Assembly (NCBI RefSeq): GCF_001423295.1
Contig: NZ_LMNG01000012.1
Location: 124,728 to 188,727 of the forward strand
Origin: Methylobacterium sp. Leaf112
GTDB lineage: Bacteria > Pseudomonadota > Alphaproteobacteria > Rhizobiales > Beijerinckiaceae
Length of the DNA stretch: 64,000 nucleotides
Direction: 5' to 3'
Shown piece after piece: positions 16,804 through 46,821 of this stretch. The translations under genes and the position numbers were made by a program. The notes under the pieces were generated by a model. It saw only the letters and a list, made by a program, of their open reading frames with translations. It made no database searches and was not told the DNA's origin. Numbering within the stretch: position 1 is the stretch's first letter; each line of letters opens with the position of its first letter.

Positions 16804-18849
16804 TCAGAAGACCTTCTCGGCATCCTTGCGGGAATTCACCCCGTCAGCCTTGTCGGCGGCCTGCTTGTCCAGCGCCCGATTCACCACCTTGGCCAGCCCG
16901 ACCATGATGGTGTCGAGGATGTAGTCCTTCGGCGTGTAGACTGCCGTGACGCCCATATTCTTCAACACGAGTTCGTCGTCGGGCGAGATGATGCCGCCCA
17001 CCACCACGGGGATGTGGTCGAGGCCGGCTTCGCGCATCTTCGCCTTCACGTCGCGCACCAGGGGCACGTGCGAGCCGGACAGGATCGACAGGCCGACGAC
17101 GTGGGCGCCGGTCTCCTTGGCCTTGGCGACGATCTCGGCCGGGGTCTGGCGGATGCCGTCATAGGTCACGTCGAAGCCGACGTCGCGGGCGCGCAGGGCG
17201 ATCTGCTCGGCGCCGTTGGAATGGCCGTCGAGGCCAGGCTTGCCGACCACGAGCTTCGGCGTTTCGCCGAGGCGCTCGCCCAGATCCGCGATGAGGAGCT
17301 TGGCTTCCTCGGCCGCGCCCGACGACACCGTGTCGAGGCCGACACCCGTGGGTGCGCGGTACTCGCCGAACACCTCGCGCAGGCGCGTGCCCCACTCGCC
17401 GGTGGTGACCCCGGCCTTCGCGGCGGCGATGGACACCGGCATGATGTTGGCGCCGGAACGCGCGGCGGCTTCGAGATCGGCGAGGGCCTTTTCCACGGCC
17501 TTGCCGTCGCGTTGCGACCGCCACGCCCGGATGCGCTGCTCGGCCTCCATCTCCACGGTCTCCGAGACGGTGAAGATGGCCCCCTCCCCGGCGGTGAGGG
17601 GCGAGGGCTCCCCGGCCTGGAACTTGTTGACGCCGACCACGACCTGATCGCCGGCCTCGATGGCCGAGATGCGCTTGGCGTTGGATTCCACGAGCGCCCG
17701 CTTGAGGGCGCCGGTCTCGACGGCGGCCACGGCCCCGCCGATGCCACCGATCTCCTCCAGGGCCTTGCGGGTCTCGGCTTTGAGGGATTCGACCTTGGCG
17801 TCGATCACCGTCGAGCCGTCGAAGATGTCGTCGTATTCGAGGAGATCCGTCTCGAAGGCGAGGATCTGCTGCATGCGCATGGACCATTGCTGGTCCCAGG
17901 GGCGCGGCAGGCCGAGCGCCTCGTTCCAGGCGGGAAGCTGCACGGCGCGGGCGCGGGCGCGCTTCGACAGGGTGACGGCCAGCATCTCGATGAGGATGCG
18001 GTGGACGTTGTTCTCGGGCTGCTGCTCCGTCAGTCCGAGGCTATTCACCTGAACGCCGTAGCGGAAGATACGCTTCTTCGGGTCGGTGATGCCGTAGCGC
18101 TCCTGGGCGATCTCGTCCCAAAGCTCCGAGAACGCCCGCATCTTGCAGATCTCGGTGACGAACCGCATGCCGGCATTCACGAAGAACGAGATCCGGCTGA
18201 ACACGTCGGCGAAGCTCGCCTCGTCGAAATCGGGGTCGTCCCGCACGGTATCCAGCACCGCGATGGCGATGGCGAGGGCGTAGGACAGCTCCTGCACCGG
18301 CGTCGCCCCGGCCTCCTGCAGGTGGTAGGAGCACACGTTCATCGGGTTCCATTTCGGCACTTCCTTGGTCGTGAACAGGATCACGTCCTTGGTGAGCCGC
18401 AGGGAGGGGGCCGGCGGGAACACGTAGGTGCCGCGCGACAGGTATTCCTTGATGATGTCGTTCTGGGTCGTGCCCTGGAGGCCGCTGAGGGGCGCGCCCT
18501 GCTCCTCGGCCACGGCGAGGTAGAGCGACAACAGCCACGGCGCCGTGGCGTTGATGGTCATCGACGTGTTCATCTGCTGCAGCGGAATCTGGTCGAACAG
18601 GGTCCGCATGTCGCCGAGATGCGCGATCGAGACGCCGACCTTGCCGACCTCGCCGCGCGCCAGTTCGTGGTCGGGATCGTAGCCCGTCTGCGTCGGCAGA
18701 TCGAAGGCCACGGACAGGCCGGTCTGCCCCTTGGCGAGGTTGCCCCGGTAGAGCGCGTTCGATTCCTTGGCGTTGGAATGCCCGGCATAGGTCCGGATGA
18801 TCCAGGGCTTGTCGCGCTTGACCTCGGCGACGGTCGCGTTCGCGCTCAT
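16804..18849 (-). CDS. ecm: Ethylmalonyl-CoA mutase
   Basis: A B12-dependent mutase that converts (2R)-ethylmalonyl-CoA to methylsuccinyl-CoA in the ethylmalonyl-CoA pathway; called MeaA in Methylobacterium. The 681-residue protein has the acyl-CoA mutase barrel (residues about 20-500, with DLPTQTGYDPDH and GLQGTTQNDIIKEY) and the C-terminal cobalamin domain with the axial motif D541-G-H543-S-N-G, then LSILSGSH and VVVGG. Ecm is told from methylmalonyl-CoA mutase by its single-chain size and by the divergent ccr neighbour. The ecm/ccr intergenic region holds two dyads that may be shared control sites. Confidence 0.95.
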   Translation of the reverse strand: MSANATVAEVKRDKPWIIRTYAGHSNAKESNALYRGNLAKGQTGLSVAFDLPTQTGYDPDHELARGEVGKVGVSIAHLGDMRTLFDQIPLQQMNTSMTINATAPWLLSLYLAVAEEQGAPLSGLQGTTQNDIIKEYLSRGTYVFPPAPSLRLTKDVILFTTKEVPKWNPMNVCSYHLQEAGATPVQELSYALAIAIAVLDTVRDDPDFDEASFADVFSRISFFVNAGMRFVTEICKMRAFSELWDEIAQERYGITDPKKRIFRYGVQVNSLGLTEQQPENNVHRILIEMLAVTLSKRARARAVQLPAWNEALGLPRPWDQQWSMRMQQILAFETDLLEYDDIFDGSTVIDAKVESLKAETRKALEEIGGIGGAVAAVETGALKRALVESNAKRISAIEAGDQVVVGVNKFQAGEPSPLTAGEGAIFTVSETVEMEAEQRIRAWRSQRDGKAVEKALADLEAAARSGANIMPVSIAAAKAGVTTGEWGTRLREVFGEYRAPTGVGLDTVSSGAAEEAKLLIADLGERLGETPKLVVGKPGLDGHSNGAEQIALRARDVGFDVTYDGIRQTPAEIVAKAKETGAHVVGLSILSGSHVPLVRDVKAKMREAGLDHIPVVVGGIISPDDELVLKNMGVTAVYTPKDYILDTIMVGLAKVVNRALDKQAADKADGVNSRKDAEKVF

Positions 18850-19038
18850 TCCACTCGACTCCGTTGGATGCTGTGCCGCGCTTGACCGCGCGTGATGGCC
18901 GGCACCCTAACCAAGCGCAGCGCGCGCGTCATCTGGCCGAAGGTTCGGCAGGCGGGCCGCGACACGCGAAGGCTTGGAAAAATTCTAGATGCACGGCGAA
19001 AGCGAATTGAACGGGGCAACACCAAAGTCGGATGCCGC

Positions 19039-19054
19039 GATGCACTTAAGCATC
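19039..19054. promoter_or_regulatory. Dyad GATGC-N6-GCATC
   Basis: The two 5-bp arms are separated by ACTTAA, which is nearly self-complementary, so the centre is also symmetric. It is a possible binding site for a dimeric regulator of ecm or ccr. The link is inferred from position only. Confidence 0.4.
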
Positions 19055-19108
19055 TGAAATACCGACAGGATACGCCGCGGCATCGCTCAGCAACGTCGCG
19101 AAAAATAT

Positions 19109-19122
19109 TGTATACGAATACA
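19109..19122. promoter_or_regulatory. Dyad TGTAT-N4-ATACA
   Basis: A perfect 5-bp inverted repeat with a 4-base spacer follows an A-rich run (AAAAATAT) about 120 bases before ccr. It resembles sites for TetR or GntR family dimers. A TetR regulator, CcrR, controls ccr in M. extorquens through a palindrome; whether this is that site is not known. Confidence 0.45.
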
Positions 19123-19244
19123 GGCCGCCGCCCGGACAGCGAGTCGCCCACAAGCACCGGGCCTTCATGGCCTTTCTGGGGCCTTGGAGCGCTTCCGGTT
19201 CGCCGATATAGGGTCGCTCACAACAAGATAAGGGAGAGCCTGAG

Positions 19245-20525
19245 ATGGCCGCGAGCGCTGCGTCGAGCACGACTGAGATCAAGGACTTGTACGAGATGGG
19301 CGAGGTCCCGCCCCTCGGTCACGTGCCGGCGAAGATGTACGCCTGGGCGATCCGGCGCGAGCGGCACGGGCCGCCGGAACAGTCCCACCTGCTCGAAGTC
19401 CTCCCCGTCTGGGAGATCGGCGACGACGAAGTGCTCGTTTACGTCATGGCCGCCGGCGTCAACTACAACGGCGTCTGGGCCGGCCTCGGCGAGCCGATCT
19501 CGCCCTTCGACGTGCACAAGGGCGAGTACCACATCGCGGGCTCGGACGCGTCGGGCATCGTCTGGAAGGTCGGCGCCAAGGTGAAGCGCTGGAAGGTCGG
19601 AGACGAAGTCATCATCCACTGCAACCAGGACGACGGCGACGACGAGGAGTGCAACGGCGGCGATCCGATGTTCTCGCCGTCCCAGCGCATCTGGGGTTAC
19701 GAGACCGGGGACGGCTCCTTCGCCCAGTATTGCCGGGTGCAGTCGCGCCAGCTCATGGCCCGGCCGAAGCACCTCACCTGGGAAGAGGCGGCCTGCTACA
19801 CGCTGACCCTCGCCACCGCCTACCGCATGCTGTTCGGCCACGCCCCCCACACCGTGCGGCCGGGCCAGAACGTCCTGATCTGGGGCGCCTCGGGCGGTCT
19901 CGGCGTGTTCGGCGTCCAGCTCTGCGCGGCGTCGGGCGCCAACGCCATCGCGGTGATCTCCGACGAGTCGAAGCGCGACTACGTCATGGGGCTTGGCGCC
20001 AAGGGCGTGATCAACCGCAAGGAGTTCGATTGCTGGGGCCAGCTGCCGAAGGTGAACAGCCCTGAGTACAACACCTGGCTCAAGGAAGCCCGCAAGTTCG
20101 GCAAGGCGATCTGGGATATCACCGGCAAGGGCAACGACGTCGACATCGTGTTCGAGCACCCGGGCGAGTCGACCTTCCCGGTCTCGACCCTGGTGGCCAA
20201 GCGCGGCGGCATGATCGTGTTCTGCGCCGGCACCACCGGCTTCAACATCACCTTCGACGCCCGCTACGTCTGGATGCGTCAGAAGCGCATCCAGGGCTCG
20301 CACTTCGCCCACCTCAAGCAGGCCTCGGCCGCCAACCAGTTCGTCATGGATCAGCGCATCGATCCGTGCATGAGCGAGGTGTTCCCGTGGGAGAAGATCC
20401 CCCAGGCCCACACCAAGATGTGGAAGAACCAGCACCCACCCGGCAACATGGCCTGCCTCGTCAACGCCCCGCGCGCCGGCCTGCGCACGGTGGAAGACGT
20501 GATCGAGGCCGGCAAGAACAAGTAA
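19245..20525 (+). CDS. ccr: Crotonyl-CoA carboxylase/reductase
   Basis: Reductively carboxylates crotonyl-CoA to (2S)-ethylmalonyl-CoA with NADPH and CO2, the key step of the ethylmalonyl-CoA pathway. The 426-residue MDR enzyme has the long N-terminal arm of the family (LYEMGEVPPLGHVP), AGVNYNGVWAGLG with the CO2-pocket Asn, the NADPH loop GASGGLGVFG (214-223) and GSHFAHLKQASAANQF with His353/His356. It is divergent from ecm. In M. extorquens AM1 ccr is reported next to a catalase gene; here the catalase lies 13 kb away. A strong hairpin follows directly. Confidence 0.97.
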   Translation: MAASAASSTTEIKDLYEMGEVPPLGHVPAKMYAWAIRRERHGPPEQSHLLEVLPVWEIGDDEVLVYVMAAGVNYNGVWAGLGEPISPFDVHKGEYHIAGSDASGIVWKVGAKVKRWKVGDEVIIHCNQDDGDDEECNGGDPMFSPSQRIWGYETGDGSFAQYCRVQSRQLMARPKHLTWEEAACYTLTLATAYRMLFGHAPHTVRPGQNVLIWGASGGLGVFGVQLCAASGANAIAVISDESKRDYVMGLGAKGVINRKEFDCWGQLPKVNSPEYNTWLKEARKFGKAIWDITGKGNDVDIVFEHPGESTFPVSTLVAKRGGMIVFCAGTTGFNITFDARYVWMRQKRIQGSHFAHLKQASAANQFVMDQRIDPCMSEVFPWEKIPQAHTKMWKNQHPPGNMACLVNAPRAGLRTVEDVIEAGKNK

Positions 20526-42241: not shown

Positions 42242-43810
42242 TCAGCCCAGACGTTCCTCAAGGTGCGCCGCCACCCGGAGCGCGTTCGCCACGATGGTGA
42301 GGGTCGGGTTCACCGCGCCGATGGACGGAAAGAAGCTCGCATCGGTGACGTAGAGATTGTCGACCTCGTGCGCCCGGCAATCGAGGTTCAGCACCGAGGT
42401 TTGGGGATCGGTGCCGAAGCGCAGGGTCCCGGCCTGATGGGCGGTGCCGCTCAGGGGAATGTTCTTGCCGAGGTAGAGCGAGCGCTCGAACAGGTAGGTG
42501 TAGGCACCGGCCGGTTGGAGCAGGCCCTCCAGGGTGTCGCGCAGGCGGTCGTGGGCTTCGCGGTTGGTCTCCGTCACGTCGAGGATCACCCGACCGTCCG
42601 CTCCGAGGCTCACCCGGTTGTCGGGGTGCGGCAGGTCCTCGCTCTGGAGCCAGAAGTCCATGGAATGGCGCGCCACCATGGCGAAGGGCGCCTCGGGCAG
42701 GAAGCCCGTCCATTTCGGGAATTCCTCGCCGCGGATCTGATCGGGATGCGTCTTGGCGCACATCTGGATCAGACCCATCGGATACTCCCAGGCCTTCGAT
42801 TCGAAGTAGTAGTCCGACACCGCCAGCGTTTTCTGGAAGACCGTGTCGTTGGGCTCCTTCGACAGCGCCATCAGCACCGACATGTTGTGGCGCATGTAGT
42901 TGCGCCCGACCTGATCCGATCCGTTGGCGAGACCGTTCGGATGCGCGTCGGAATGCGAGCGCAGGAGCAGCAGGGCCGACGAAAGGGCTCCGCACGCCAC
43001 CACGACGATGTCGGCGCTGTAGCGCTCCTCTTCGCCGCTTCGGGTGACGTGGACGGAGGTCACCCGGCGGCCCGACGCATCGGTTTCGAGACGCGACACG
43101 TAGGCGTTGGTGAGGAGGGTGACGTTCGGGTACGCGGCCAGCGTCGGATCGACGGTCATCACCTGAGCGTCGGCCTTGCCGTTGAGAAGGCAGGGGAACC
43201 CGTCGAAGGCGTCGCAGCGGATGCAGGTGCTCGTCGGGGTCGGCCGGCCGTTCCGCTCGTCGAGCTTGATGCCCAGCGGTAGGTGGAATGGGTGCAGGCC
43301 GTGCCGGGCCCAGTCGTCCGAAAGCCGCTGGATGCGCGGCTCGTGGGAGACGGCGGGGTGATCGTAGGGTGCGCTCGCCCAGGGCTCCCCCGGGTCCTCG
43401 CCCCGATTGCCATGGACGGCGAACAGGCGCTCGGCCCGGGTGTAGTACGGCTCGAACACGTCGTAGCCGAGCGGCCAGGCCGGTGAGACACCATCGACGT
43501 GGCGCACGGCCTCGAAATCGCGCTCGCGCATCCTGAGGAGGGCTGCGCCGTACACCTTCGAGTTGCCGCCCACGTAGTAGTGCAGTGCCGGACTGAAGGC
43601 CCGCCCATCGCCGCCGTACCACGTTTCCTTGGCCTGATAGGCACCGTCCACGAACACGGTCTTGGCGCTCCAGTTCGCCTGCGAGCGAGGCAGGTAGTCG
43701 CCGCGCTCGAGGAGGAGGATGCGTTTTCCCGTCGGCGCCAGGGCCGCCGTGAGGGAGCCGCCGCCGGGACCACTGCCGATGACGATGACGTCGTAACGAT
43801 CCTGGGACAT
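42242..43810 (-). CDS. GMC-type FAD oxidoreductase
   Basis: Flavoenzyme of the glucose-methanol-choline superfamily, 522 residues, probably oxidising an alcohol or a cyclic hemiacetal. The FAD loop VIVIGSGPGGGS (residues 8-19) starts the protein without a signal peptide, so it is cytoplasmic. A CIRCDAFDGFPC segment with three Cys lies near residue 215. The active-site pair is His458 (GTAHQAGTLRFG) and Asn501 (AVNPTLTI). It is divergent (242 bases) from the DoxX-cupin-lactonase-VOC operon, and a lactone product would suit the SMP-30 enzyme there. Substrate unknown. ATG 43810 is chosen over the frame to 43990. Confidence 0.88.
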   Translation of the reverse strand: MSQDRYDVIVIGSGPGGGSLTAALAPTGKRILLLERGDYLPRSQANWSAKTVFVDGAYQAKETWYGGDGRAFSPALHYYVGGNSKVYGAALLRMRERDFEAVRHVDGVSPAWPLGYDVFEPYYTRAERLFAVHGNRGEDPGEPWASAPYDHPAVSHEPRIQRLSDDWARHGLHPFHLPLGIKLDERNGRPTPTSTCIRCDAFDGFPCLLNGKADAQVMTVDPTLAAYPNVTLLTNAYVSRLETDASGRRVTSVHVTRSGEEERYSADIVVVACGALSSALLLLRSHSDAHPNGLANGSDQVGRNYMRHNMSVLMALSKEPNDTVFQKTLAVSDYYFESKAWEYPMGLIQMCAKTHPDQIRGEEFPKWTGFLPEAPFAMVARHSMDFWLQSEDLPHPDNRVSLGADGRVILDVTETNREAHDRLRDTLEGLLQPAGAYTYLFERSLYLGKNIPLSGTAHQAGTLRFGTDPQTSVLNLDCRAHEVDNLYVTDASFFPSIGAVNPTLTIVANALRVAAHLEERLG

Positions 43811-44052
43811 GGGTCGATCCTGGGCTGGGCAGCCGTGCCGAACGATCCGCCGGACGTTCGAGACGGCCAACGTGAACCCGTCCGCCCCGTTCCGCGCTGC
43901 GGTGCACACAATGACGCGCGTGGGCGCAACCGTACGGACGGAGTGGCGTTGGAAGCGGGTGGGACACGCTCGTGCCCTGCAACACCGCACGAGGCTCCGA
44001 TGATCGCTGCGTTCGCTGTGAACCCTGCGTCCGACGCAGCGGATACCGGCCG

Positions 44053-44535
44053 ATGACCTGGCTCGATCTCGTGGCGGTGCCGCTGCTCGCCAAGATCTGC
44101 CTCGTCTGCATGTTTCCCCTGAGCGCTTACGACAAGGTGGTTCACTGGGACGAGGCGTTGGCCCAGGCCGCCTCCGGCCCCCTGCCGTTTCCGGCGCTGC
44201 TCCTCATGCTTGGCATCCTCGTCGAGACGATGACGCCGGTGATGATCGTGATCGGCTGGTACGACCGGGCCGGCGCCTTTCTACTCGCCGGCTTCTGCGG
44301 CGTGACGGCCGTGCTGTTCCACCGCTTCTGGGAGTTCCCCGGCTTCTGGTCGCGGGACGGCGAAGGGCGCGCCCATTTCTGGGACTTCTTCAAGAATTTC
44401 GGCCTCGTCGGCGGTCTGCTGCTCGTGGTGATCGGCGGCGGCTACGCCCCGGCCTCGCAGGTCGCGCACCATCCCCTCTCGAGCGGCCCGCAAGCGGCGG
44501 AGATCCAAATGCCGGCCGCACCAGCCCGACCCTGA
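44053..44535 (+). CDS. DoxX family membrane protein
   Basis: Small inner-membrane protein of 160 residues with about four helices (near 5-25, 40-65, 70-90 and 115-135). The loop RFWEFPGFWSRDGEGRAHF with the following WDFFKNFGLVGG is typical of the DoxX group. Members of the wider DoxD family work with quinones, which suggests electron transfer for the nearby flavoenzyme, but this is inference. ATG 44053 is the first codon of the first helix. The cupin gene follows after 15 bases. Confidence 0.83.
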   Translation: MTWLDLVAVPLLAKICLVCMFPLSAYDKVVHWDEALAQAASGPLPFPALLLMLGILVETMTPVMIVIGWYDRAGAFLLAGFCGVTAVLFHRFWEFPGFWSRDGEGRAHFWDFFKNFGLVGGLLLVVIGGGYAPASQVAHHPLSSGPQAAEIQMPAAPARP

Positions 44536-44550
44536 GACAGGAAACCCGCC

Positions 44551-44997
44551 ATGACCGGAACGACGCCGACCATGCCCTATTGGCACGTCTTCACCGATCC
44601 GGAGGGGATCAGCCGCCAGGAGCGGTTCACCCTCTCGAACTTCCGGTTCCAGGGTGTCGGCCCGGATGTGGCGCCGCAATGGAACGACAAGCAGGACCCG
44701 ACCAAGGCGGGCGTCACCTTCACGGTGCTCCCCGTCGGCTGGGTCGGCGAATGGCACGAGAACCCGAAGCCCCAGTGGATCGCCGTCCTGACGGGGCGCT
44801 GGTTCGTCGAGACCATGGACGGGCACCGGGTCGAGATGGGGCCGGGCGACCTCATGTTCGGCGAAGATCAGAACACCGTGGCGCATGACGGCCGCAAGGG
44901 ACATCTCTCCGGCACCGTGGGCGACGAACCCTGCACCATGATGGTGGTCGGCCTCGACGTGTCCCCCACGGTGAACCAGCCCGGCCGCTTCACCTGA
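44551..44997 (+). CDS. Cupin domain protein
   Basis: Single-domain beta-barrel protein of 148 residues. The two cupin motifs are visible: WVGEWHENPKPQWIAVLTGRW (metal-binding His/Glu region near 67-85) and GPGDLMFGEDQNTVAH (about 98-113). No signal peptide. It lies 10 bases before the SMP-30 gene, well inside the operon. Cupins of this form act as isomerases, dioxygenases or simple binding proteins; I cannot choose one. Confidence 0.82.
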   Translation: MTGTTPTMPYWHVFTDPEGISRQERFTLSNFRFQGVGPDVAPQWNDKQDPTKAGVTFTVLPVGWVGEWHENPKPQWIAVLTGRWFVETMDGHRVEMGPGDLMFGEDQNTVAHDGRKGHLSGTVGDEPCTMMVVGLDVSPTVNQPGRFT

Positions 44998-45007
44998 GGG
45001 GGTCGCC

Positions 45008-45910
45008 ATGGACGGCTTCGAGATCCACGACCCGCGCTTTCGCGCCTTCGTGCTGCCGAACGCTCCGTTGGAGACCCTCGCGGAAGGGTTTCGCTGGTGC
45101 GAGGGCCCGGTCTGGTTCGGCGACCGGGACGAACTCCTGTTCAGTGACCTGCCCAACGACCGGGTGATGCGCTGGAGCGAGCACGGCGGCCTCAGCGTCT
45201 TCCGCGCGCCGAGCGGCTTCGAGAACGGGCATGCCCGCGACCGCGAGGGGCGGCTGCTGTCGTGCTCGCACCGCGGGCGCTGCATCACCCGGACCGAACT
45301 CGACGGCACCGTCACGATGCTGGCCGACCGGTACGAGGGACGGCGCCTGAATTCGCCCAACGACATCGTCTGCCGGTCCGACGGGACGATCTGGTTCACC
45401 GATCCGCCCTACGGCATCCAGACGGATTACGAGGGCGGCAAGCAGGTCTCCGAACTGCCGGCACGGGTCTACCGCCTCGACCCGACAACGGGCGACCTCA
45501 CCATCGTGGCCGACGATTTCGAAGGGCCGAACGGCCTGTGCTTCTCGCCCGACGAGACCCGGCTGTACATCGCCGAAAGCGGCCTGCAATTCGCCGATGC
45601 GCCGACGCGGCACCTGCGGGTGTTCGTGGTCGGCGCAGGCGGCAGCCTCTCCGGCGGGCGGGTGTTCCATACGGTCGAGCCCGGCTTCGCCGATGGGTTC
45701 CGTTGCGATACGGACGGGAACCTATGGTCGAGCGCCGGCGACGGGGTCCACTGCATCGACCCGTCCGGTGCGCTGCTCGGCAAGATCCTGACGCCCGGCC
45801 CCGTCGCCAATCTCGCCTTCGGCGGTCGCGAACGGTCGCGCCTGTTCCTCTGCGCCGGCCAGCGCCTCCAAGCGATCTACCTCAACCAGCGCGGAGCGCG
45901 CCTGCTGTGA
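45008..45910 (+). CDS. SMP-30/gluconolactonase family protein
   Basis: Six-bladed beta-propeller hydrolase of 300 residues, likely opening a sugar or similar lactone. The metal ligands typical of the family are present: Glu32 in RWCEGPVW, Asn118 in LNSPNDIV, Asn175 in GPNGLCFS and Asp229 in FADGFRCD. There is no signal peptide. Its GTGA overlap with the VOC gene shows close coupling. With the divergent GMC oxidoreductase it would form an oxidise-then-hydrolyse pair. Confidence 0.88.
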   Translation: MDGFEIHDPRFRAFVLPNAPLETLAEGFRWCEGPVWFGDRDELLFSDLPNDRVMRWSEHGGLSVFRAPSGFENGHARDREGRLLSCSHRGRCITRTELDGTVTMLADRYEGRRLNSPNDIVCRSDGTIWFTDPPYGIQTDYEGGKQVSELPARVYRLDPTTGDLTIVADDFEGPNGLCFSPDETRLYIAESGLQFADAPTRHLRVFVVGAGGSLSGGRVFHTVEPGFADGFRCDTDGNLWSSAGDGVHCIDPSGALLGKILTPGPVANLAFGGRERSRLFLCAGQRLQAIYLNQRGARLL

Positions 45911-46821
45911 GGCCCCGCGTCACCCGTCTCCTCGGCCTCAGTCGCACGGTGGCGGATCTCGCCCGAACGGAGGCGTTCTACCGCGACGGGCTCGATTTCC
46001 GCCGCCTCGGCCCCGTCGAACGTATCCCGAGCGCCGTACTGGATGCGCTCGGCCTTCCCGAGGCCAGCGGGGGGCGGTTGCGTATGGGGCTTGGGGACCA
46101 GAGCATCGAGTTCCTGGCCTTCGATACGCCCGGTCAGCGCTACCCCATCGGTGCCCTGGCCAACGATCCGTGGTTCCAGCACGCCGCCATCGTGGTCGCG
46201 GACATGAACCGCGCCGTCGCGCGCCTCGACGCCTTCGCACCCGTGCCGATCTCGCGCGGCGGTCCGCAGCGCCTGCCGCCCACCTCCGGAGGCGTCACAG
46301 CCTGGAAGTTTCGCGATCCCGACGGACATCCCCTGGAGCTCCTGGCCTTTCCGGAGGGTGCGGGCGCCCGGCGTTGGGTCGAAGCCCCCGGCCTGTTTCG
46401 CGGCATCGATCATTCCGCCATCACGGTCGCGGACGCGGAATCCGCCATCGCATTCTTCCGCGACGCCCTCGGGCTGCACCTCGACGGACGGAGCCGTAAC
46501 AGCGGGCACGAGCAGGCCGCCCTCGACGGCTTGGACGAGCCCGTGGTCGACGTGATCGCGCTCCGGCCCGACGCGGAGGCGGTGCCGCACGTCGAACTCC
46601 TGCATTACCGCGCGCCCGTTCCCACCGCCGCCCGCCGGCCCTTCACGGCCCGCGACCGGTTCACCTCCCGGCTCCGCTTCGGCCTCCGCGACCTGCCGGC
46701 CCTTCGCGACCGGCTCGCGCGCGACTGGCCGCACGTTCCGCTTCACGCCGCACGCGACGGCAGCGTGATCGGTCTCGCGGGGCCCGACGCCCACGGAATC
46801 CTGCTCATCGCGGAGGGCTGA
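45907..46821 (+). CDS. Two-domain VOC (glyoxalase/dioxygenase fold) protein
   Basis: Protein of 304 residues with two vicinal oxygen chelate modules: residues about 5-155 (LGLSRTVADLARTEAFYRDG, then AWKFRDPDGHPLELLAF) and 165-300 (IDHSAITVADAESAIAFFRDALG). The layout resembles extradiol dioxygenase-like or lyase VOC enzymes. Putative metal ligands are His and Glu of the second and fourth strands. GTG 45907 overlaps the SMP-30 stop by four bases. A hairpin at 46840-46857 probably ends the operon. Confidence 0.85.
   Translation: MRPRVTRLLGLSRTVADLARTEAFYRDGLDFRRLGPVERIPSAVLDALGLPEASGGRLRMGLGDQSIEFLAFDTPGQRYPIGALANDPWFQHAAIVVADMNRAVARLDAFAPVPISRGGPQRLPPTSGGVTAWKFRDPDGHPLELLAFPEGAGARRWVEAPGLFRGIDHSAITVADAESAIAFFRDALGLHLDGRSRNSGHEQAALDGLDEPVVDVIALRPDAEAVPHVELLHYRAPVPTAARRPFTARDRFTSRLRFGLRDLPALRDRLARDWPHVPLHAARDGSVIGLAGPDAHGILLIAEG

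Follow-up and report, generated by a model that had tools for sequence, protein, structure and literature searches.

Gene content of the locus

The analysed stretch of Methylobacterium sp. Leaf112 DNA (64,000 nucleotides, referred to as the window) contains between positions 42242 and 46821 a group of five genes, in which a minus-strand gene for a GMC-family flavoprotein is divergent from plus-strand genes for DoxX, cupin, SMP-30 and VOC proteins. All five predicted open reading frames (5/5) were present. The GMC gene (42242..43810, minus strand) encodes 522 amino acids counted from its ATG and carries the Pfam GMC_oxred_N/C domains. On the other side of a divergent intergenic region of 242 bases, the plus strand encodes a DoxX-family membrane protein (44053..44535, 160 amino acids, Pfam DoxX), a candidate quinone/membrane partner, followed by a single-domain cupin (44551..44997, 148 amino acids, Pfam Cupin_2), an SMP-30/gluconolactonase-family protein (45008..45910, 300 amino acids, Pfam SGL) and a two-domain VOC protein (45907..46821, 304 amino acids from a GTG start, Pfam Glyoxalase). 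The gaps of 15 bases between the DoxX and cupin genes and of 10 bases between the cupin and SMP-30 genes, as well as the 4-base overlap of the SMP-30 and VOC genes, agreed exactly with an initial annotation made from the letters of the sequence. The Pfam domains of all five proteins exceeded the curated cut-offs, with scores of 159.4 bits for SGL (cut-off 26.3) and 43.3 bits for DoxX (cut-off 23.6), and among the NCBIfam equivalogs listed for the five proteins none exceeded its cut-off.

The divergent region contains a sigma-EcfG-type element, GGAAC-N16-CGTT (43869..43893, minus strand), which faces the GMC gene 58 bases 5' of its ATG. A candidate EcfG-like element with weaker evidence, GCAAC-N16-CGTT (43926..43950, plus strand), faces the DoxX operon 102 bases 5' of the DoxX gene.

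Conservation of the five-gene set

The five genes form a genuine and widely shared bacterial module. A scan with the GMC protein as the query, in which each species was represented by one genome, gave 267 relatives, and the best 80 were retained for the analysis of their loci. These comprised 24 loci from Methylobacterium, Methylorubrum and a Methylobacteriaceae bin (L063–L086) and 56 others from Acetobacteraceae, Paraburkholderia, Caballeronia, Ramlibacter, Dyella, Mesorhizobium, Caulobacter, Novosphingobium, one Acidobacteria bin and further taxa, so that the best 80 relatives span alpha-, beta- and gammaproteobacteria in addition to the Acidobacteria bin. In the fetched flanks, tblastn matches were obtained for GMC in 80/80 loci, DoxX in 65/80, the cupin in 61/80, SMP-30 in 60/80 and VOC in 52/80. 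The complete set was located within 4.5 kb of the GMC gene in 43/80 loci, 8 of them in the Methylobacterium group and 35 outside it; in 14/80 loci an incomplete set lay near a contig end. A chance adjacency of the five genes was ruled out because the set recurs within this distance in 43 of the 80 relatives, and the conservation in other genomes on which the initial annotation had made its proposal depend was thus observed. The gene order is variable: GMC-DoxX-cupin-SMP30-VOC are co-directional in many loci, divergent in Methylobacterium and permuted elsewhere.

The distribution within the family was examined in a sample of 99 genomes including the own genome, with the GMC protein found in 18 (E ≤ 1e-60), VOC in 10 (E ≤ 1e-25) and the cupin in 12 (E ≤ 1e-15). 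Twelve genomes besides the own one had a GMC protein of at least 60% identity, and five of these carried the complete set (L045–L049), one with a remoter SMP-30 match (41%) on the opposite strand. No SMP-30 match was present within the stretch taken from G027. The GMC, SMP-30 and VOC genes were together in G013 and G054, with the cupin elsewhere and DoxX unmatched, and in G035 the set was divided over two places (L054 and L055), one with cupin-GMC and the other with DoxX-SMP30-VOC. In G092, a contig end carried GMC with a fragment of VOC, and in G023 and G033 GMC alone was found. At the class level the module is sparse, as the GMC protein was matched at E ≤ 1e-150 in 2/142 genomes, own included. 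Among 72,556 plasmid records, 52 matched the GMC protein (E ≤ 1e-100); 20 of the 25 plasmid matches listed bore the annotation GMC family oxidoreductase, and some of the 25 came from Nostoc-type cyanobacteria and Streptomyces (49–57% identity).

Relationship of the GMC protein to sugar dehydrogenases

Sequence and predicted fold both place the GMC protein closer to the quinone/cytochrome-linked sugar dehydrogenases than to the oxidases. Its best PDB sequence matches were the alpha subunit of FAD-dependent glucose dehydrogenase (FAD-GDH; 6a2u, E 5.9e-33) and the large subunit of fructose dehydrogenase (FDH). The fold search with the model of the protein (predicted local distance difference test (pLDDT) 74.5, predicted template modelling score (pTM) 0.83) placed FAD-GDH and FDH first with template modelling (TM) scores of 0.73–0.78, with choline oxidase next at about 0.65 and pyranose oxidases also behind. 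The identity of a choline or alcohol oxidase was rejected on these weaker fold and sequence matches. The catalytic pair His458 and Asn501, described as intact in the initial annotation, was conserved in 81/81 aligned proteins. A second conserved feature was the motif Cys196-x2-Cys199-x7-Cys207, whose cysteines were kept in 81, 79 and 79 of the 81 proteins. In the alignment, the three-Cys loop falls on the Cys-rich segment of glucose dehydrogenase, a segment that carries a 3Fe-4S cluster. No signal peptide was seen in the GMC protein by eye.

A second, distant GMC protein with about 27% identity is encoded on contig C11 of the same genome (L181:4783-6330). A role in anti-phage defence was rejected, the PADLOC scan, made with the GMC protein alone, giving 0 families at E ≤ 1e-10.

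The DoxX, cupin, SMP-30 and VOC proteins

The residue counts quoted here and above come from fuller alignments than A1–A5, which took in 36/81, 32/35, 28/57, 22/63 and 20/58 usable rows. In DoxX, D27, K28, W93 and K114 were present in 63/63 aligned proteins. In the cupin, H69, E70, N71, Q75 and H118 were kept in 59/59; the invariant WHENP-x-PQW block together with His118 suggests a metal site, and the PDB search gave a weak match (E 0.033) with no close structure. The nearest structures of the SMP-30 protein were 3e5z and 3dr2 (E about 1e-57, nearly full length). Its E32, N118, N175 and D229, which we take to be the four metal ligands, were conserved in 56, 54, 57 and 57 of 57 aligned proteins, in agreement with the complete set of ligands reported initially.

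The VOC protein, initially read as a two-domain enzyme, was modelled with high confidence (pLDDT 95.8) as a tandem fold of four beta-alpha-beta3 modules, with maize tandem glyoxalase I as the top fold match, GLOD4 near and dioxygenase-type structures little behind. His92, Glu144, His169 and Glu230 were conserved in 48/48 aligned proteins, an arrangement that presumably corresponds, with rough spacing, to the order of ligands in E. coli glyoxalase I and to the H(Q)/E/H/E pattern of GlxI. The first and last modules are variable, and modules 1a and 2b have no invariant His or Glu apart from the near-invariant His296 in the last module. It is in these outer modules that the His/His/Glu ligands of an MhqO/PcpA-type dioxygenase would, on our assumption, be placed. 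Since the invariant residues are those of a glyoxalase-I-like set, the ring cleavage that had been considered for the VOC protein is disfavoured, and an extradiol-type enzyme was set aside as the first choice.

A conserved sigma-EcfG-type promoter element

The block encodes no regulator, as stated initially, but the divergent region contains a conserved sigma-EcfG-type element, which was new relative to the initial annotation. The GGAAC-N16-CGTT sequence facing GMC was found by the alignment of divergent regions and is the sole exact GGAAC-N16/17-CGTT in the 64 kb window. For the 242-base divergent region the chance expectation was about 0.0035 exact matches. The exact element was present 5' of GMC in 16/25 regions of the Methylobacterium group (15/24 named loci and the window), whereas 300 first-order resamplings of the 25 regions gave a mean of 0.04 and a largest value of 1. 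The same 16/25 regions met the consensus GAAC-N16,17-C/GGTT, which PMC4814048 gives for EcfG promoters of M. extorquens AM1 (resampling mean 0.32, largest 3). The Methylorubrum extorquens bin L072 is among the regions with the element and has DoxX in addition to GMC. By its sequence, the Methylobacterium module thus carries a general-stress-response-type promoter element on the GMC side.

Among the loci outside the Methylobacterium group, in which 300 bases 5' of GMC were searched and GMC is often inside an operon, the consensus was met in 1/56; exact elements were also detected 5' of DoxX in L134 and L116 and 5' of a short-chain dehydrogenase/reductase (SDR) gene in L124. EcfG is restricted to Alphaproteobacteria according to PMC3892343, and because many of the 56 loci are alphaproteobacterial too, the element characterises the Methylobacterium lineage. 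The DoxX-side GCAAC-N16-CGTT differs from the M. extorquens consensus by one base, and GCAAC variants occur in the Sphingomonas promoter list of PMC6599016. A G[GC]AAC-N16/17-CGTT sequence was found on the DoxX side in 17/25 regions, some being the near-palindromic GMC-side element read in reverse; a variant free of overlap with that element was present in 15/25 regions, its aligned place not always being equal. No report naming this gene set as a target of the stress response was seen; the main texts of the EcfG regulon papers PMC4814048 and PMC6599016 do not mention GMC, and that of PMC6599016 does not mention DoxX or gluconolactonase (the supplements were outside the scope).

The own genome contains the corresponding regulatory system. 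The NepR search gave 6 matches, 4 of them above the cut-off, and phyR (with Pfam PhyR domains) and nepR form a divergent pair in which an exact element precedes each gene, which served as a positive control; the 2.3 kb region around this pair (C30:151492-153751, L180) contains six exact elements. In the whole genome the exact pattern had 75 sites in comparison with 38 for the reversed control. Out of 30 sites inspected, 19 were intergenic and had a gene start no more than 150 bases away, 9 were outside genes but had no such start and 2 were inside genes. An exact element was also located 87 bases before the called start of a gene for a glucose/sorbosone dehydrogenase-domain protein (PF07995; C1:38155-39285, L185:2156-3286), possibly a further sugar-oxidation gene of the stress regulon.

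Genes neighbouring the module in relatives

Genes called in the flanks that were fetched for the 80 loci were clustered into neighbour families, each named from one representative. Genes in the relatives' loci and in own-genome stretches were called with a simple codon-score caller, which clips even the window's own cupin and VOC genes; some genes were missed or clipped, and the neighbour counts are rough for this reason. A glucose-1-dehydrogenase-like SDR was found in 23/80 loci (best PDB match 1gee, E 3.1e-70) and a second SDR in 17/80. A GH15 protein with a trehalase-like N-terminal domain occurred in 20/80 loci, its representative having no PDB relative at E ≤ 1e-10. Subunits of oxidases were also recurrent, with CyoB-like genes in 14/80 and CyoA-like genes in 12/80 loci, and third and fourth oxidase-type families (both named by eye) in 10 and 9 of 80. 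An NDH-2-like cluster was present in 2 loci. These neighbours suggest respiratory sugar oxidation. A GH39 gene was near the module in 6/80 loci (L094, L103, L105, L109, L115 and L128), four of which (L103, L105, L109 and L115) had a Glycoamylase-domain cluster as well, a hint at the substrate glycan. No support was found for the lignin-derived substrates listed in the initial annotation, the neighbour genes of relatives indicating sugars.

In L073, L074, L075, L078, L086, L092 and L130, the GMC gene, alone or with module members, was near genes for a thiamine pyrophosphate (TPP) enzyme, Gluconate_2-dh3 and a second GMC protein, a grouping that is a separate recurrent oxidation cluster. In the window, the translations indicated by eye a methyl-accepting-type protein upstream of the five genes and lgt downstream; look-alikes of ethylmalonyl-CoA mutase and crotonyl-CoA carboxylase/reductase (16804-20525, by eye) are consistent with Methylobacterium.

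Proposed function and alternative explanations

The module is interpreted here as a stress-induced, quinone-linked sugar dehydrogenase-lactonase system, a reading that we consider about evenly poised between right and wrong. From the pathway idea of the initial annotation, the module itself and the lactone logic stood, and the flavoenzyme proved nearer to sugar dehydrogenases than to oxidases; the sugar substrate, the lactone intermediate, the delivery to quinone via DoxX, the roles of the cupin and VOC proteins and the expression under stress are what we infer. The cytoplasmic GMC enzyme would act on a sugar, the likeliest reaction being the oxidation of an aldose or aldose glycoside at the hemiacetal carbon or at a hydroxyl of the ring; homology and the neighbouring genes point to a lactone or keto-sugar as the probable product. 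Electrons would leave the FAD for the membrane, perhaps via the conserved three-Cys site, and DoxX would replace the small subunit and cytochrome of glucose and fructose dehydrogenases, delivering them to quinone; the CyoB-like genes of relatives may be set alongside this putative route. The SMP-30 protein would open the lactone, and the resulting product may be isomerised, epimerised or detoxified by the cupin and the VOC protein, the latter glyoxalase-I-like, to judge by their conserved residues. In Methylobacterium, the observed element suggests that the PhyR-NepR-sigmaEcfG system would control the module.

Several observations weigh against this interpretation. The set was incomplete in 23/80 loci despite room on both sides, the GMC protein was absent at E ≤ 1e-60 from 2/4 sampled genomes of the genus, and the mean column identity was 39% for VOC versus 79% for GMC. 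The Cys loop was modelled at pLDDT below 50 and the GMC model gives no Cys geometry; because of this low confidence and the differing Cys spacing, an iron-sulphur cluster is suggested and not claimed. One exact EcfG match per window corresponds to the chance level (mean 0.93; at least one in 58/100 shuffles), so it is the position and the conservation that argue for the element. The exact element was absent from 9/25 regions, three of which (L073–L075) have GGAAC-N16-TGTT, and the EcfG control is specific to one lineage, so stress is not the universal role of the module. Finally, representatives of ten neighbour families (the SDRs, GH15, GH39, glycoamylase, CyoA, CyoB, TPP enzyme, Gluconate_2-dh3 and triheme cytochrome) gave no hit within the window at a threshold of E 1e-3, and the argument for a sugar therefore depends on the relatives.

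A module against quinone or aromatic stress, in which DoxX and VOC would clear reactive catechols or quinones and GMC and the lactonase would process related aromatic alcohols and lactones, has a precedent in the CatDE and MhqNOP sets of Bacillus, where DoxX and VOC proteins remove catechols and quinones. The co-occurrence of the DoxX and VOC genes and the stress-type promoter would fit such a role, as would the fold matches of VOC to 3oaj (a putative dioxygenase of B. subtilis, rank 10) and 4huz (2,6-dichloro-p-hydroquinone 1,2-dioxygenase, rank 12), whose TM scores of 0.60–0.63 are little under that of maize glyoxalase I. It appears improbable nevertheless, as the invariant VOC residues suit a glyoxalase-I-type site, modules 1a and 2b are without an invariant metal-type residue (though His296 is near-invariant) and the neighbour families examined were glycosidases, sugar dehydrogenases and oxidase subunits.

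Two further alternatives keep the sugar and change its fate or that of the electrons. Sugar dehydrogenation with a c-type cytochrome in place of DoxX as the electron acceptor draws on a stand-alone triheme cytochrome encoded on contig C7 (C7:80689-82272, L184:2690-4273), which has three CxxCH motifs, the FAD-GDH beta subunit as its best PDB match (8hdd_B, E 2e-90) and an exact EcfG element (C7:80607-80632) 56 bases before its called start at 80689. We give this route a low probability: the GMC protein, inspected by eye, is without an export signal and has no adjacent small subunit, DoxX and not a cytochrome is near GMC in relatives, and the genome's sole Gluconate_2-dh3 match (L179:1501-1908) adjoins the other GMC gene on contig C11, a likelier partner of the cytochrome. 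The oxidation may also serve modification and not catabolism, with the sugar of a glycoside, a storage glucan or an osmolyte oxidised or rearranged for protection in desiccation or starvation. The EcfG element and the GH15, GH39 and Glycoamylase-type neighbours in relatives are in line with this; glycosidase-type genes were unmatched in the window and the GH15 representative lacked a PDB relative at the threshold given above, and we regard it, too, as having a small chance of being correct.

If the reading as a sugar dehydrogenase-lactonase system is true, DoxX proteins would obtain a concrete partner in redox chemistry, and a pathway would become available for a GMC clade that is widespread and annotated just as "GMC family oxidoreductase". 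The general stress response of Alphaproteobacteria would be tied to the respiratory oxidation of sugars in leaf-inhabiting methylotrophs, bacteria not commonly regarded as sugar users, and the role of the stress regulon in energy supply on leaves would become directly testable. A farther-reaching proposal, that the module represents a new architecture of respiratory GMC sugar dehydrogenases, with a cytoplasmic relative of glucose and fructose dehydrogenases, a three-Cys electron-transfer site in that enzyme, a direct DoxX-to-quinone route replacing the exported small subunit and triheme cytochrome, a coupled lactonase, cupin and tandem glyoxalase in a transferable unit and stress control in Methylobacterium, is tentative and seems to us rather doubtful as a whole.

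Comparison with known systems

The initial annotation knew of no named pathway with this gene set, and searches of an open-access library, judged by titles and abstract beginnings, gave no description of the five genes. By analogy, the module may resemble in its working a glucose or fructose dehydrogenase combined with a gluconolactonase. The GMC protein shares the fold and the His/Asn pair with the large subunits of FAD-GDH (Burkholderia cepacia, alpha-beta-gamma) and FDH (Gluconobacter), with 22–24% identity in the structural alignment, and its Cys loop lies where GDH has its Cys-rich segment, although with x2/x7 spacing in comparison with CC-x4-C-x3-C in 6a2u. Those complexes have a small (gamma) subunit and a triheme cytochrome, whereas the GMC locus has an adjacent DoxX. 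No small-subunit gene was found among the other four genes and the Gluconate_2-dh3 representative was unmatched in the window; the small-subunit family PF12318 gave no match in the own genome, in a search whose positive control was also unmatched. The triheme cytochrome of contig C7 is unlinked to GMC, and a search of the window at E 1e-3 gave no relative of it. Because both an adjacent small subunit and an adjacent cytochrome are lacking at the locus, the module was not classed as a GDH/FDH complex.

The SMP-30 protein shares with the SMP-30/gluconolactonase family the beta-propeller SGL domain and the putative ligands, and lactone hydrolysis is predicted for it. The VOC protein has the four beta-alpha-beta3 modules of maize tandem glyoxalase I (6bnx/5d7z) and GLOD4 (TM 0.54–0.71), at 15–17% identity and with poorly conserved first and last modules, and its glutathione chemistry is putative. 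With the PhyR-NepR-sigmaEcfG system of Methylobacterium, the own genome shares the consensus promoter, phyR and nepR.

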